From Acidobacteriaceae bacterium (lineage in GTDB: Bacteria; Acidobacteriota; Terriglobia; Bryobacterales; Bryobacteraceae), in the NCBI GenBank assembly GCA_019240405.1, contig JAFAYL010000045.1, positions 1 through 64,000 on the forward strand: DNA of 64,000 nucleotides, read 5' to 3'. The translations under genes were made by a program, and so were the position numbers. Shown in pieces: positions 553 through 5,052 of this stretch. Position 1 is the first letter of the stretch. Each line of letters begins with the position of its first letter. Below the pieces are notes generated by a model. The model made no database searches, was not told the origin of the DNA, and saw only the letters and a list, made by a program, of their open reading frames with translations.

Positions 553-1866
553 TCAGCTATTTGTCAGGATGCGGGTGATGTCGTTATAGATCACGAACAC
601 GACAATCATCATTAAGAAGACGAAACCGAGCTTGAACACCGTTTCCTTGACACGCATGCTCATTTCGCGTTGGATGACCATCTCGACGGCCAACATCAGT
701 AGCGTGCCGCCATCCAGAATCGGTATCGGCAAAAGATTGAAAATTGCCAAATTCAAGCTCACAAGCGCCATCCATCCGAAAAAGCTTGATGGACCCTCGC
801 GCGCGGCCTCGCTCGACATCTGCGCCATACCGATTGGTCCGGCCAAAGTCTTCGGGGAAACGCGCCGTTCAATGATGCTTCTTAAAACCTGAAAAATCAG
901 TGTCGCGTTCTGCATGTTGAGGCGAACCGATTCTCTAATCGCGGATCCGAATCCGAGCTTCACCATCTCGACAGGCAAACGGAACATAATGCCGATGCGC
1001 CAAGGCATCTTGGTTTCGCCAGTCGCAGTGGGAGTAACCGCAAGATCTTGAATGCTGCCGTTTCGCATCACGGTAACTTGAATGGGCTTGCCGGCAGAAC
1101 GAACCACGGCTTGCTGAACTGTTGCGGCCGAAGCTACTGGCTGACCATTCACCCGGATCAACAGATCCCCAGGTTTTAAGCCGGACGCATCTGCTGGTGA
1201 TCCTTTCATTACCTGCCCGACCTGCACATCACCGCGCCAGCCCGCGACTCCGACGCCTTGCTTTGTATCCATCTGCGGGGTCACCGTGAAGTGGAGTAGT
1301 TTGCCAGCGCGCTGTGCTTCAACCGATAGCGGATGATTCGCATTTAGTGCTTCTTCCGTGAGGAGGTCCTGCCAGCTCGGATTTTTTTGGCCGTTTAGCT
1401 GAACAATTTTGTCGCCCGGTTCAAGCCCTGCCTTCGCGGCGGCCGAATTCGGCTCGAGGCTGCTGATCACCGGCTCGCTTCCTGTTACTTCCTTCGGAAA
1501 ACCGTACATGTACAGTCCCGTCACAATCGCGAGCGCCAAAACGATATTCATCATCGGCCCGGAAAACACGACAAAAGCCCGCTCCCATCTCGCCTTCGCC
1601 TGAAACGAGCGCGGATCCGCTGATTCGTTATCGCCCGGCTGTTCTCCAAGCATGCGGACGTATCCCCCAAAAGGAATCGCGGAAATGCGGAAATCGGTTT
1701 CTCGTCCTTTGACCCCAAAGAGCCGGGGCCCGAAACCGAAGCTGAATGTCTCTACCTTGATGCCAACGAGGAGGGCTGCGAAATAATGGCCCATTTCATG
1801 GATTAGGATCATGACTCCGAAAAGAATCACGGCCCAAAAGACAGGTTGTAGCCAAGCCAAGCTCAA
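553..1866 (-). CDS. rseP: RIP site-2 zinc metalloprotease RseP
   Basis: Intramembrane protease that cleaves anti-sigma factors or signal-peptide remnants inside the inner membrane. The HEMGH zinc-binding motif lies at residues 23-27 in the first transmembrane helix, two PDZ-like domains occupy about residues 110-275, and the third zinc-ligand region NLLPIPILDGG is near residue 380 before the last helices. At 437 residues it has the usual length of the two-PDZ type. The start overlaps the dxr stop by 4 bp (ATGA), so the two are translationally coupled. In many bacteria cdsA and uppS also sit in this neighbourhood; they are absent here. Confidence 0.96.
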   Translation of the reverse strand: MSLAWLQPVFWAVILFGVMILIHEMGHYFAALLVGIKVETFSFGFGPRLFGVKGRETDFRISAIPFGGYVRMLGEQPGDNESADPRSFQAKARWERAFVVFSGPMMNIVLALAIVTGLYMYGFPKEVTGSEPVISSLEPNSAAAKAGLEPGDKIVQLNGQKNPSWQDLLTEEALNANHPLSVEAQRAGKLLHFTVTPQMDTKQGVGVAGWRGDVQVGQVMKGSPADASGLKPGDLLIRVNGQPVASAATVQQAVVRSAGKPIQVTVMRNGSIQDLAVTPTATGETKMPWRIGIMFRLPVEMVKLGFGSAIRESVRLNMQNATLIFQVLRSIIERRVSPKTLAGPIGMAQMSSEAAREGPSSFFGWMALVSLNLAIFNLLPIPILDGGTLLMLAVEMVIQREMSMRVKETVFKLGFVFLMMIVVFVIYNDITRILTNS

Positions 1867-3047
1867 TTCACTCCTTTTTGCGTCACGCTACAAATCTGCC
1901 TTGCCAGCTCGCGCGAAGCCCTATCAATTGAAATAACGTCTTCTATTGTCGCTGGTTCCCGGTTTGGTTGACGGGCTAGCGTTTCTTCTACTGTCTCCGC
2001 TATAGCGGGAAATGAAATCCGCCCCTCCAGGAACGCTTCTACAGCAATTTCATCGGCAGCATTCAATGTACATGTCGCCGATCCGCCCGTTTTTTGAGCC
2101 TCGTACGCCAATCTCAATAGACGGAACTTGCCGAAATCCGGTGGGGAAAACTGCCAAGTGCGGCTTTGTGCCCAGTCAAGCCGCGGCACCGGAGCTCGCT
2201 CACGTTCGGGGTATGTCATCGCATACTGAATTGGCATCCGCATGTCAGTGGCTGAGATTTGGGCGATCACGCTCCCGTCGTTATATTCGACCATGGCGTG
2301 TATCGACGACTGAGGGTGCACCACCACCTCCACTTGAGATGGCTGCAAATCAAACAACCAGCACGCCTCAATCACCTCGAAACCCTTGTTCATGAGAGTC
2401 GCCGAATCTATCGTGATCCGCCGCCCCATCTTCCAGGTTGGATGATTTAAGGCCTCTTCCGGAGTCACGCTCCGCAATTTTTCCGGTGGCGTGTCTCGAA
2501 AAGGCCCTCCCGAGGCAGTGAGTATCAGCCGGGTGACTTCCGAACGCGCCCCGGCGCGGAAGCATTGATGCGCCCCATTGTGCTCGCTATCGACGGGGAT
2601 CAACTCGGCGCCACTCTGCCGCACCGCCTTCATCACCAGCCGTCCGCTCGCGACCAGCACTTCTTTATTCGCCAAACCGACGCGTTTTCTCGCTCGGATC
2701 GCCTCATATGTTGCCTCTAGCCCGGCCACTCCGACGATTGCGGACATCACGAAGTCCACTTCGGCAGCCGTCGCAGCGGCCACCCGCCCTTGCGGCCCGG
2801 CCATCAACTCCGGCCATTCCCACCCTGCGAGCGCTGTTTTCGTCAATCGCGTTCGTAGCTCTTCTAGGGTTTTATTCTCAGCGACACCCACCACCTTCGG
2901 CCTGAATTCCAAAATTTGGGAACAAAGAACATCCAGATTCTTACCGGCAACGAGTCCGTAAACGCGAAACCGTTCCGGGTGCTGGCGTACCACATCAAGC
3001 GTGCTAACGCCAATCGAACCTGTTGAACCCATGATGGTTACGTTCAT
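1863..3047 (-). CDS. dxr: 1-deoxy-D-xylulose 5-phosphate reductoisomerase
   Basis: Second enzyme of the MEP isoprenoid pathway: converts DXP to 2-C-methyl-D-erythritol 4-phosphate with NADPH and a divalent metal. The N-terminal NADPH loop GSTGSIG is at residues 8-14, the metal-binding VDSEHN segment is in the middle, then ATLMNKGFEVIEACWLF and VHPQSSIHAMVEY, both family signatures. 394 residues is normal. It leads the dxr-rseP pair. The 279 bp upstream contain a strong structured element and, on this strand, a terminator-like hairpin 75 bp before the start, so transcription into dxr may be attenuated (inference). Confidence 0.97.
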   Translation of the reverse strand: MNVTIMGSTGSIGVSTLDVVRQHPERFRVYGLVAGKNLDVLCSQILEFRPKVVGVAENKTLEELRTRLTKTALAGWEWPELMAGPQGRVAAATAAEVDFVMSAIVGVAGLEATYEAIRARKRVGLANKEVLVASGRLVMKAVRQSGAELIPVDSEHNGAHQCFRAGARSEVTRLILTASGGPFRDTPPEKLRSVTPEEALNHPTWKMGRRITIDSATLMNKGFEVIEACWLFDLQPSQVEVVVHPQSSIHAMVEYNDGSVIAQISATDMRMPIQYAMTYPERERAPVPRLDWAQSRTWQFSPPDFGKFRLLRLAYEAQKTGGSATCTLNAADEIAVEAFLEGRISFPAIAETVEETLARQPNREPATIEDVISIDRASRELARQICSVTQKGVN

Positions 3048-3120
3048 GTTTCAAAGTCCAATCCGGAGCCGGATATGGACGTTCACGGACCTGGTCACTT
3101 GAAAAATTTCGATTTTTGTA

Positions 3121-3143
3121 GAAAAAACTCTTGCGCTCCGCAA
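3121..3143 (-). terminator. Terminator-like hairpin upstream of dxr
   Basis: Read on the minus strand, a 5-bp perfect stem TTGCG-GAG-CGCAA (3143-3131) is followed by GAG and six T residues (3127-3122). This has the form of a short intrinsic terminator and lies between the structured element at 3166-3262 and the dxr start at 3047. The stem is short, and the same bases double as the -35 of a plus-strand promoter, so it could be coincidental. Confidence 0.35.
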
Positions 3144-3159
3144 AATCATATTCTAATAT
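3131..3159 (+). promoter_or_regulatory. Sigma70-type promoter for a putative plus-strand RNA
   Basis: TTGCGC at 3131-3136 and TAATAT at 3154-3159 are separated by exactly 17 bp. An A/T-tract region (3100-3128) just upstream resembles an UP element. Predicted initiation is about 3166-3168, right at the first base of the inverted-repeat structure that follows. No plus-strand protein gene lies downstream before 4276. Confidence 0.45.
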
Positions 3160-3165
3160 TGAAAG

Positions 3166-3262
3166 TAAGCCAGGGAGGCAACTCCCACCAAAGCGAGACT
3201 AACCTCATAGAAAGACCCCTGAAGCAACACCTCCCTGGCGCCCGCAAGGGCCAGTCTCGCAG
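3166..3262 (+). ncRNA. Candidate structured RNA with pseudoknot topology
   Basis: This stretch codes for no recognisable protein but holds nested perfect inverted repeats. Stem A pairs GCCAGGGAGG (3169-3178) with CCTCCCTGGC (3230-3239). Stem B pairs GCGAGACT (3193-3200) with AGTCTCGC (3253-3260). One arm of B lies inside the loop of A and the other outside, the signature of a pseudoknot. Two local hairpins with GCAA tetraloops also exist: GGGAG/CTCCC (3173-3186), which competes with stem A, and GCCC/GGGC (about 3240-3251). GNRA loops occur only in the plus-strand reading, and the plus-strand promoter just upstream supports that sense. I could not match it to tmRNA, SRP RNA, 6S, RNase P or any riboswitch I know. 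Confidence 0.45.
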
Positions 3263-3326
3263 CTTCGATCAAAACACCCTACATTAATCTTCGAAAGTCG
3301 TGCTGCCACGGTAAGCCGTCACCGAC

Positions 3327-4343
3327 TCACCGGAACAAAACACGCCAAATTGTCACGACGCAGGCGTGAGTGACCATTGAGCTACGTACACTCCCCGTCC
3401 GGACGTATGCCAGTCCGCAGCCGATCCCTAAGATCGCGGCAAGAAATGCATGATTCCAATTGGGGAAGCGCCGGAACCAGAGGTGCGCGGCGCCAAAAAG
3501 AATCGCTGAAAGCAGGATAGCTGTGACTGGCGACCTCCATTGGTTAAGCAGAGCGCGCTCGATTACACCTCGAAAAAACAGCTCCTCGCTCAAAGCAATC
3601 ACCCACAGAGCGCCGAGAAAATACCCGGCTGCTACTCCAGTAACACGCCACCAGTCTCCATGTATCGGCGCGAACTCGACGGTGCGCAGCTCGATCCCGA
3701 GCACGCACAGCGGAACGAGTACGAGTAAGAAGTAGATCACGCCAATTTTCCACTCGTGCACTCTTGGCCAGAAGCCGAACGCGCCAGGCTGCCATTCCCT
3801 CAACACCAACAACGCTGCGATCCCGAGCCGAATCCACGTCAAATGCCCGAGAATGTCCGTTCGCGTGTGTCCATCAGGCGAAAGATAGATTCGCGAAAAC
3901 ACGCGCAAAACCACCGGAGCCGCAGCAATCACCAGAAAGCCAAAATCAAAAGCCGCACGCCGCGGCAGCAACACATGCCAATAAGCAAGGACTCCGCACA
4001 GCAGCGCAAGCAAAACAAGCGCATTCAGGTGAAACGTTGCCGTTCCGAAGCTGAAGACGAAGAATGGCACAAGAGCGCTCGCCCACAAAATCGTCGCTTC
4101 GATCATGCGCGAGTTGATTTTGCGAAGCGACGCGCGCGTCTCTTCGAAGACAGAGGCCACATAGAAAACCGCCTCGATCAGGAAAGCCGGCAATGCCGCG
4201 CGCATGATCCAATGAGAGTGTGGATGTTCGTTTGAGTAAATCAATGCAACCACGAATAGCGCCGTCCATGAGCACATGAGTGCTAGAAAAAACGGGCGCA
4301 TAGTCCGCAACATCGCCCCAATCGTAGCATCGGCGGCGATCAT
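3327..4343 (-). CDS. CPBP-family intramembrane metalloprotease (CAAX/Abi type)
   Basis: Multi-pass membrane protein of about 340 residues with about eight hydrophobic segments. The C-terminal third carries the family motif EELFFRGVIE (EExxxR), followed by a second motif with His (AAHLWF) and a final histidine (THACVV), the expected glutamyl protease residues of PF02517. Substrate unknown. The reading frame is open to a TTG at 4358; ATG codons at 4343, 4313 and 4301 are alternatives. I took 4343 because GGA precedes it by ten bases. Every choice overlaps the divergent gene starting at 4276, which is unusual and means one of the two starts may be wrong. Confidence 0.85.
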   Translation of the reverse strand: MIAADATIGAMLRTMRPFFLALMCSWTALFVVALIYSNEHPHSHWIMRAALPAFLIEAVFYVASVFEETRASLRKINSRMIEATILWASALVPFFVFSFGTATFHLNALVLLALLCGVLAYWHVLLPRRAAFDFGFLVIAAAPVVLRVFSRIYLSPDGHTRTDILGHLTWIRLGIAALLVLREWQPGAFGFWPRVHEWKIGVIYFLLVLVPLCVLGIELRTVEFAPIHGDWWRVTGVAAGYFLGALWVIALSEELFFRGVIERALLNQWRSPVTAILLSAILFGAAHLWFRRFPNWNHAFLAAILGIGCGLAYVRTGSVRSSMVTHACVVTIWRVLFR

Positions 4344-5052
4344 TTCAGTTGTTTCCAATTACGCGGCCGAGCCCCCGCCAGGGCTTGTGAAAAAGATCGC
4401 CCAACGCGAGTCCGACAATGCGCGAGCGCGGCAGAATTACACTTACAGGCAATCCGTAACTGTGCAAGAATTTGATGATCGTGGTCTCGTGACGGGCGAA
4501 TATCGCGAGGTGCGCGACGTTACGTTTTCACCCAATCGGATCAGGTATGAGCAAGTCATCGAGCAGCCGCGAAACACCTTGACGCGGATTAAATTGACAC
4601 CCGAGGATTTCGCCGATATCCGAAATGTTCAACCCTTCTTCATCACTACAGAGCAGTTGCCCCTGTACGAAGCGAAATATAAAGGCGAAGAGACAATCGA
4701 TGGCGTCAACTGTTTCGTCGAATACCTTAGGCCGCGCCAGATTCTTTCGACCCAACGATTTTTTGAAGGGACCCTGTGGGTGAGGGAATCCGATTTGGCT
4801 GTGATTCGCACCGAAGGACAAGCGGTTCCGCAAATCGAAACCCTGAAGCAGCAGAATCTATTCCCGCATTTCACGACGATTCGCCGGGAAGTAGACGGAA
4901 AATGGCTCTTCCCCGAAGAAACCTATGCCGACGATACGCTGTTCTTCCGGGATTGGCCGCAGCGCATCCGAATCATCATCCGGTATCTGAATTACAAGCG
5001 ATTTGGGGCTGAATCCACGATTACGTTCGGCGAGACTGAACCGCCGAAGTAA
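4276..5052 (+). CDS. Exported protein of unknown function
   Basis: 258 residues. The N terminus has a basic stretch (SARKNGRIVRN), a hydrophobic core (IAPIVASAAIISVVS) and a possible cleavage site near NYAAEP, so it is probably secreted. The mature part contains segments such as GEETIDGVNCFVEYLRP, SDLAVIRTEGQAVP and VDGKWLFPEETYADD, the pattern of beta-strand-rich proteins related to the LolA/outer-membrane lipoprotein-sorting fold common in Acidobacteriota. That assignment is inference. The start lies inside the divergent CPBP gene; without it the signal peptide would be lost. The 3' end overlaps the convergent nucleotidyltransferase gene by 32 bp. Confidence 0.7.
   Translation: MSARKNGRIVRNIAPIVASAAIISVVSNYAAEPPPGLVKKIAQRESDNARARQNYTYRQSVTVQEFDDRGLVTGEYREVRDVTFSPNRIRYEQVIEQPRNTLTRIKLTPEDFADIRNVQPFFITTEQLPLYEAKYKGEETIDGVNCFVEYLRPRQILSTQRFFEGTLWVRESDLAVIRTEGQAVPQIETLKQQNLFPHFTTIRREVDGKWLFPEETYADDTLFFRDWPQRIRIIIRYLNYKRFGAESTITFGETEPPK

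Follow-up and report, generated by a model that had tools for sequence, protein, structure and literature searches.

A candidate small RNA gene of the Bryobacterales with a conserved promoter, a C-rich loop and a lineage-dependent 3' lid

Acidobacteriota of the order Bryobacterales are common in soil. In one of their genomes (Acidobacteriaceae bacterium, assembly GCA_019240405.1), a short stretch between dxr and a gene for a CAAX/Rce1-like protease raises the question of whether a structured RNA is encoded there and, if so, what it may do. The window, i.e. the whole stretch of DNA that was analysed, comprises 64,000 nucleotides (contig JAFAYL010000045.1, positions 1 to 64,000 of the forward strand). 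A sequence-only reading had placed an unassigned, pseudoknot-forming RNA with its own promoter at 3100-3262, and all coordinates given there for stems, hairpins and promoter boxes are exact on the sequence. Both neighbouring genes are on the minus strand: dxr (1863..3047; Pfam DXP_reductoisom, DXPR_C and DXP_redisom_C) is divergent, and the protease gene (3327..4358; Pfam Rce1-like) is convergent.

Promoter and RNA of ~97 nt span 3131-3262 on the plus strand, to which all of the following features belong. An A/T-rich, UP-element-like tract (3100..3129) precedes the -35 box, TTGCGC (3131..3136), and, after 17 nt, the -10 box, TAATAT (3154..3159). The small RNA, which is predicted from sequence alone, would extend over 3166..3262, its start being taken from the promoter spacing. 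The 10-bp closing stem P1 begins 9 nt past TAATAT and encloses a 51-nt loop; GCCAGGGAGG (3169-3178) forms its 5' strand and CCTCCCTGGC (3230-3239) its 3' strand. Together with the two preceding bases, the 3' strand reads CACCUCC, which we take to resemble the 16S anti-Shine-Dalgarno (anti-SD) sequence. Three segments of the loop, CUCCCACC (3182..3189), GCGAGACUAACCUC (3193..3206) and AAAGACCCCUGAAGC (3211..3225), are C-rich, G-poor and conserved in the alignments A1 and A3; the GCGAGA part of the second is altered in some members of a sister family, as are the last bases of the third in that family. An alternative hairpin, H1 (3173-3186; GGGAG-GCAA-CUCCC, in DNA GGGAG-GCAA-CTCCC), takes up five bases of the P1 5' strand and is exclusive with P1. 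P1 is followed by a terminal hairpin, H3 (3240-3251; GCCC-GCAA-GGGC; 68% of cells paired in 109 sequences), and by a 3' lid, AGTCTCGC (3253-3260), which is complementary to GCGAGACT (3193-3200) in a register typical of the window's genus. A protein-coding reading was rejected because relatives differ by indels of 1-2 nt in loop and tail; the open reading frame at 3075-3287 is attributed to chance. A minus-strand element was likewise dismissed: the conserved promoter and a terminator-like hairpin in the sister family both lie on the plus strand.

Rfam 15, of whose library Acido-1 (RF01686) and Acido-Lenti-1 (RF01687) are taken to be part, yielded no match at the gathering cut-off in the whole window, none at six loci with homologues and none at E <= 1 at three loci including the window's own. 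At E <= 10, two matches of chance level appeared (snR56, 15 bits; CRISPR-DR47, 13.6 bits). The structured RNA is therefore still to be called unassigned. As small RNA genes present throughout the family, 6S RNA and the small SRP RNA resemble it, but they differ in fold and in genomic place: the 6S model (RF00013) matched ten of 16 family genomes, two of them above the cut-off, and the SRP model (RF00169) 15 of 16 above the cut-off, each time away from the new RNA; in the window's own genome, the SRP RNA is at G000:C4. An identity with either was rejected, since both models match other places in the genomes. With two of 16 genomes above the cut-off, the 6S RNA of the family may be under-modelled; a 31-bit candidate in the window's own genome, below the Rfam cut-off (L193, G000:C57:74315-74443), is possibly a divergent 6S RNA.

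The observation is confirmed, and the element has the appearance of a new RNA family. In a DNA search, 65 of 100 genomes, the window's own included, match at E <= 0.001, which places its conservation far above chance. A further family of the order, f2, contributed two matching genomes, and the window's own genome contains one copy, its five other matches being short (15-25 nt) with E values of 3 or more. For searches by structure, a covariance model, R1, was built from 109 distinct cores (185 pattern matches before deduplication, nine loci left out); the window, one of these 109 source sequences, matches it at 3165-3264 with 104 bits (E 1.9e-25). Among family genomes at least 90% complete, R1 finds the RNA in 162 of 170, the window's own included, and in 63 of 64 genera. 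A class-wide sample of 349 genomes gave matches in 80 of 82 members of the same family, in all ten of the sister family f3 and in one of 257 others; this last match (G120, 28 bits) is without a good stem or promoter on inspection and was put down to chance. The three matches in a phylum-wide sample of 347 all fall into the window's family, the window's genome among them. In these three R1 searches stricter filters were applied, at which weak matches are lost.

Most genomes carry a single copy. In two assemblies, JAICJH (L081, L095, L105) and CAJCIT (L089, L116), copies that in part differ in sequence lie on several contigs and may reflect multiple copies, overlap of contig ends or a second strain. 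A pattern scan of named genomes returned at least 119 stretches; apart from three discussed below, the titles among the matches listed are those of variously labelled Acidobacteria, often Bryobacterales, Solibacter, Bryobacter or Sulfopaludibacter. Strain KBS 96 (KB906767.1, L156), the title of which bears no metagenome-assembly mark, carries the RNA. Pattern matches in Psychroserpens (L121) and Stahlbacteria (L147) were dropped as chance, the flanking structure being absent, and a contig titled Arcobacter sp. (L174, DYJN01000053.1) with the family's RNA was kept and is probably a mislabelled bin. No viral contig matches the RNA pattern, and a viral origin is unsupported.

Comparison of homologues bears out the closing stem, which had been proposed as a perfect 10-bp inverted repeat. 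The alignment A3 comprises 47 hand-picked divergent rows (45 distinct; L073, missed by the pattern that collected the cores, is included), so that its percentages are not frequencies; in it, 99.5% of the P1 cells are paired, as against 54-68% in slid controls. Five of nine pairs are changed on both sides, a number reached in none of 500 shuffles, and the double changes include C-G to G-C, C-G to U-A, G-C to A-U and A-U to G-C. The set of 109 sequences gives 99.4% paired cells for P1 and double changes at four of its pairs. H1, the GCAA hairpin held to be mutually exclusive with the long stem, is also conserved (95-99% of cells paired), with a loop varying from about 3 to 11 nt. It contains one covarying pair, the 5' base of which covaries with its P1 partner too; the count of doubly changed pairs is attained in 490 of 500 shuffles and that of such cells in none of 500, and part of the covariation may go back to a single event within one clade.

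By calculated energies, 107 of the 109 tail-less cores prefer P1 to H1, and the remaining two are rows aligned one column off in A1; the window with its tail folds preferentially as H1 plus the second stem. As the conserved H1 shares the 5' strand of P1, the fold may be bistable. Compared with dinucleotide shuffles, folding energies are low both for the 181-nt stretch (z -2.3; 2 of 200 as low) and for the 74-nt core (z -3.6; 1 of 200). A sister-family locus, L228, folds into a 12-bp P1 with an unpaired 48-nt loop, followed by a strong hairpin and U6 (z -3.9), and another, L070, folds in the same way with a 10-bp P1. In the modelled fold of L228, hairpin and U6 look like an intrinsic terminator, although a terminator scan of this locus listed none.

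The promoter, TTGCGC-N17-TAATAT with a start near 3166 in the original proposal, is likewise borne out by relatives: boxes and spacing are conserved among 141 distinct upstream regions. Each of these contains TTGN3-N16-18-TAN3T 4-14 nt before the stem, a count made without a shuffle control, and 107 of them have an N17 spacer and exactly 9 nt to the stem. The first three positions of the -35 box are T, T and G in 89, 97 and 87%, the family consensus of the -10 box is TANNAT, and mid-spacer positions show almost no constraint (0.02-0.42 bits). Upstream of the -35 box, most positions between -59 and -42, counted from the stem, have A as their most frequent base (42-77%), and this block may act as an UP element. 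The pattern fits a promoter of the sigma-70 type, from which an RNA start 2-3 nt before P1 is predicted. An E. coli-type sigma-70 scan of the window found no promoter, the boxes sharing 7 of 12 positions with the E. coli consensus; the promoter is accepted despite this result because of its conservation in relatives. On the minus strand, a terminator-like hairpin with a T-run (3129-3145) overlaps the -35 box and, by eye, seems not to be conserved in relatives.

The second half of the proposed pseudoknot fared differently. In its fixed register (3193-3200/3253-3260), 35-53% of cells are paired in the 109-sequence set, against 42-53% when the whole structure is slid; as a stem of the entire family it does not stand, and what stands is one of several tail-to-loop registers, mainly a feature of the window's genus. 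The 45 nt after P1 were searched, in 145 tails, for 6-mers complementary to the loop motifs. Complements of AAGACCCC occur in 54 tails (mean of dinucleotide shuffles 5.6; none of 145 in a stretch further on), those of GCGAGACT in 24 (4.6; four further on) and those of CCTGAAGC in 20 (6.2; four further on). Enrichment is not clear for two other loop motifs, ACTAACCTC (10 of 145 tails; shuffle mean 3.7, maximum 11) and CTCCCACC (2 of 145; shuffle mean 1.8).

After three of the 145 tails had been dropped, 71 of 142 could form a contiguous tail-loop helix of at least 7 bp, compared with six in mononucleotide shuffles; the other half of the tails is without such a lid. The 71 lids contact AAGACCC in 34 cases, GCGAGAC in 16, CCUCUAA or ACCUC in 14 and other registers in seven. 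Nine of the 12 rows listed for the GCGAGAC register belong to the window's genus. Many lids of the AAGACCC group would recruit the GGG of H3 and hence compete with this hairpin. Tails paired with their own loops give 28 helices of at least 8 bp and with permuted loops at most 21, none of 300 permutations being as high, although these tail-pairing controls overstate independence because the sequences are related. As far as complementarity can tell, the 3' tails demonstrably match the loop, in registers that depend on the lineage.

Does the RNA belong to dxr, or is it a gene of its own? The sequence-only reading had suggested collecting dxr-upstream regions from relatives. Gene context was counted at 144 distinct loci flanked by 400 nt or more on each side (20 of 164 loci had short flanks and were left out; a gene beyond the retained flank was scored as absent). 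At 99 of them dxr follows the RNA on the same strand, 93 of these with a hydroxyisobutyrate-dehydrogenase-like gene upstream (a Pfam match was checked on one such gene), as would be expected of a cis-acting 5' leader of dxr, either an attenuator or riboswitch-like, in which lid pairing is the switch. The remaining loci argue against such a leader: dxr is divergent at nine and otherwise arranged at six, 17 have the dehydrogenase gene without a dxr match, and 13 have neither gene, one of these with purA and one with accD as neighbour. The window and the 13 loci of its genus at which dxr was matched have it in divergent orientation, and the link to dxr thus does not hold across the family. Compared with most of the family, the window's genus and KBS 96 (L006, L156) have dxr inverted relative to the RNA gene. 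Tandem copies point in the same direction. Three genomes of the genus g73 carry two or three of them, 445-600 bp apart; L224 (2125-3255) contains three promoter-RNA units, the repeat being 168 nt long, with a dxr start after the last copy, and L075 (2853-3597) contains two, each copy at both loci keeping its promoter while the intervening DNA differs. G761 provides a fourth case, a tandem pair at a distance of 280 bp. In sister-family members, moreover, the terminator-like hairpin directly follows the RNA. Given its variable gene context and its tandem copies, the RNA is considered an autonomous gene; a dxr leader, against which the variable context was judged decisive, is left with very little probability. 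Another reading starts from the strand order of the window, P1-P2-P1'-H3-P2', which corresponds to the P1-P2-P1'-P4-P2' of a self-cleaving, HDV-like ribozyme, H3 being the hairpin between the 3' strands. The HDV fold is a nested double pseudoknot with a 7-bp P1, a P3 and a catalytic C between P4 and P2. Here, P1 has 10-12 bp, no P3 is evident, the register of P2 is not fixed across the family, the 5' end set by the promoter is 2-3 nt ahead of P1, and the Rfam search gave no HDV match at E <= 10. On the strength of the Rfam result, the 10-bp P1 and the unfixed second stem, a ribozyme was rejected as extremely improbable.

A promoter of its own and independence from gene context, as far as both can be read from sequence, are features by which a trans-acting small RNA (sRNA) is recognized. 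The homologues further display compensatory changes in P1, and both their large C-rich loop and H1 are conserved. The reading preferred here, to which we assign somewhat less than an even chance, is that of an autonomous sRNA gene acting in trans through its C-rich loop, with a 3' lid able to mask this loop; pairing in trans and masking are proposed by analogy with the sRNA PmaR and the NmsR siblings, and we infer both with corresponding reserve. The RNA, about 75-130 nt long across the family, could function in the following manner: In the spoon-shaped form closed by P1, CUCCCACC, ACCUC and GACCCCU would be displayed and might base-pair with stretches in several mRNAs that are rich in G and possibly Shine-Dalgarno-like. 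Where a lid is present, it may form a pseudoknot with the loop and keep the RNA inactive until a target, a protein or a condition displaces it. H1 may be an intermediate of co-transcriptional folding or a second state, in which the CCUCC-bearing 3' arm would be free. Searches for targets gave no excess. Near-complements of the three loop motifs, counted besides the RNA gene on both strands of 21 genomes per motif (the window's own included), number 89, 16 and 28, with 220, 39 and 102 for backward-pattern controls. Duplexes with the dxr start region are no better than with mononucleotide shuffles (mean z +0.25, n=119), the start codons having been set by a crude rule and some of them probably being wrong.

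Since near-complements fall below their controls and the dxr start gave a null result, binding of a protein stays a serious rival, unlikely on balance as we judge it. The loop would then be recognized by an RNA-binding protein or by RNA polymerase, which the RNA would sequester or scaffold, in a mode comparable to 6S, CsrB or Ms1 RNA without being one of these. About 45 nt of the loop are nearly invariant across the family, which exceeds what a short sRNA seed needs and thus also suits protein binding, as do the near-universal occurrence and the single copy in most genomes. On the other side, the loop of the window is G-poor and has no GGA, 6S-like and SRP RNAs reside elsewhere in the family genomes, and this reading comes without a candidate partner. 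A different doubt concerns novelty: the RNA could be the Solibacter-1 motif of Weinberg et al. 2010, already listed though uncharacterised, and beyond this motif the top matches of the literature listings contain no small RNA of the order. Table 1 of that paper gives it for Solibacter usitatus without an Rfam number, with RNA status '?' and cis-regulatory 'n' (PMC2864571). The two or three tandem copies per genome in one genus would agree with it; a motif of one species, however, is presumably repeated within its genome, and the RNA described here is single-copy in most genomes. We regard this identity as improbable.

Returning to the trans-acting sRNA, a bolder version would make it a core riboregulator of the whole order: a bistable lasso, in which P1 holds the C-rich loop open, the competing 5' hairpin frees the anti-SD-like 3' arm and the pseudoknot lid closes from the 3' side, the contact of the lid having shifted repeatedly during evolution (GCGAGAC, CCUCUAA, AAGACCC) with masking kept. 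This is speculative and rather unlikely; if the evolution of the lid is real, it would offer a natural succession of versions of a single regulatory fold, each built in another register. A near-universal, mostly single-copy gene of the family is at hand in any case, and its role is directly testable, given the covariance model, the predicted start site and clear test mutants.

Among known sRNAs, three groups come closest, all of them likened by description. The LhrC family of Listeria has C/U-rich motifs and differs from the new RNA in fold and phylum; it is reported to be multicopy (PMC4132741, PMC5880928). NmsRA and NmsRB of Neisseria are reported to be tandem siblings with putative promoters, the UC-rich anti-SD stretches of which are single-stranded and completely conserved in the genomes analysed there (PMC5362039). 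They share with the new RNA, on this description, tandem copies with promoters and anti-SD-type stretches in single-stranded regions, but have three stem-loops instead of one closed loop and belong to a different phylum. PmaR of Agrobacterium binds its targets through a C-rich single-stranded loop, mostly not at ribosome-binding sites, and swapping four C-rich loop bases abolishes target regulation; regulation is mostly positive and not via an anti-SD sequence, and the excerpts consulted report PmaR only from Agrobacterium and one Rhizobium strain (PMC6234868). Given the mostly positive regulation by PmaR and its contacts outside ribosome-binding sites, the anti-SD part of our proposal is weaker than the loop part. 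According to the same excerpts, PmaR and the new RNA have in common a spoon-like stem with a single-stranded loop containing several C-rich regions, conserved in sequence and structure; the likeness is one of described fold, not of sequence, a shared-arm hairpin or lid is not mentioned in them, and for PmaR the targets are known.
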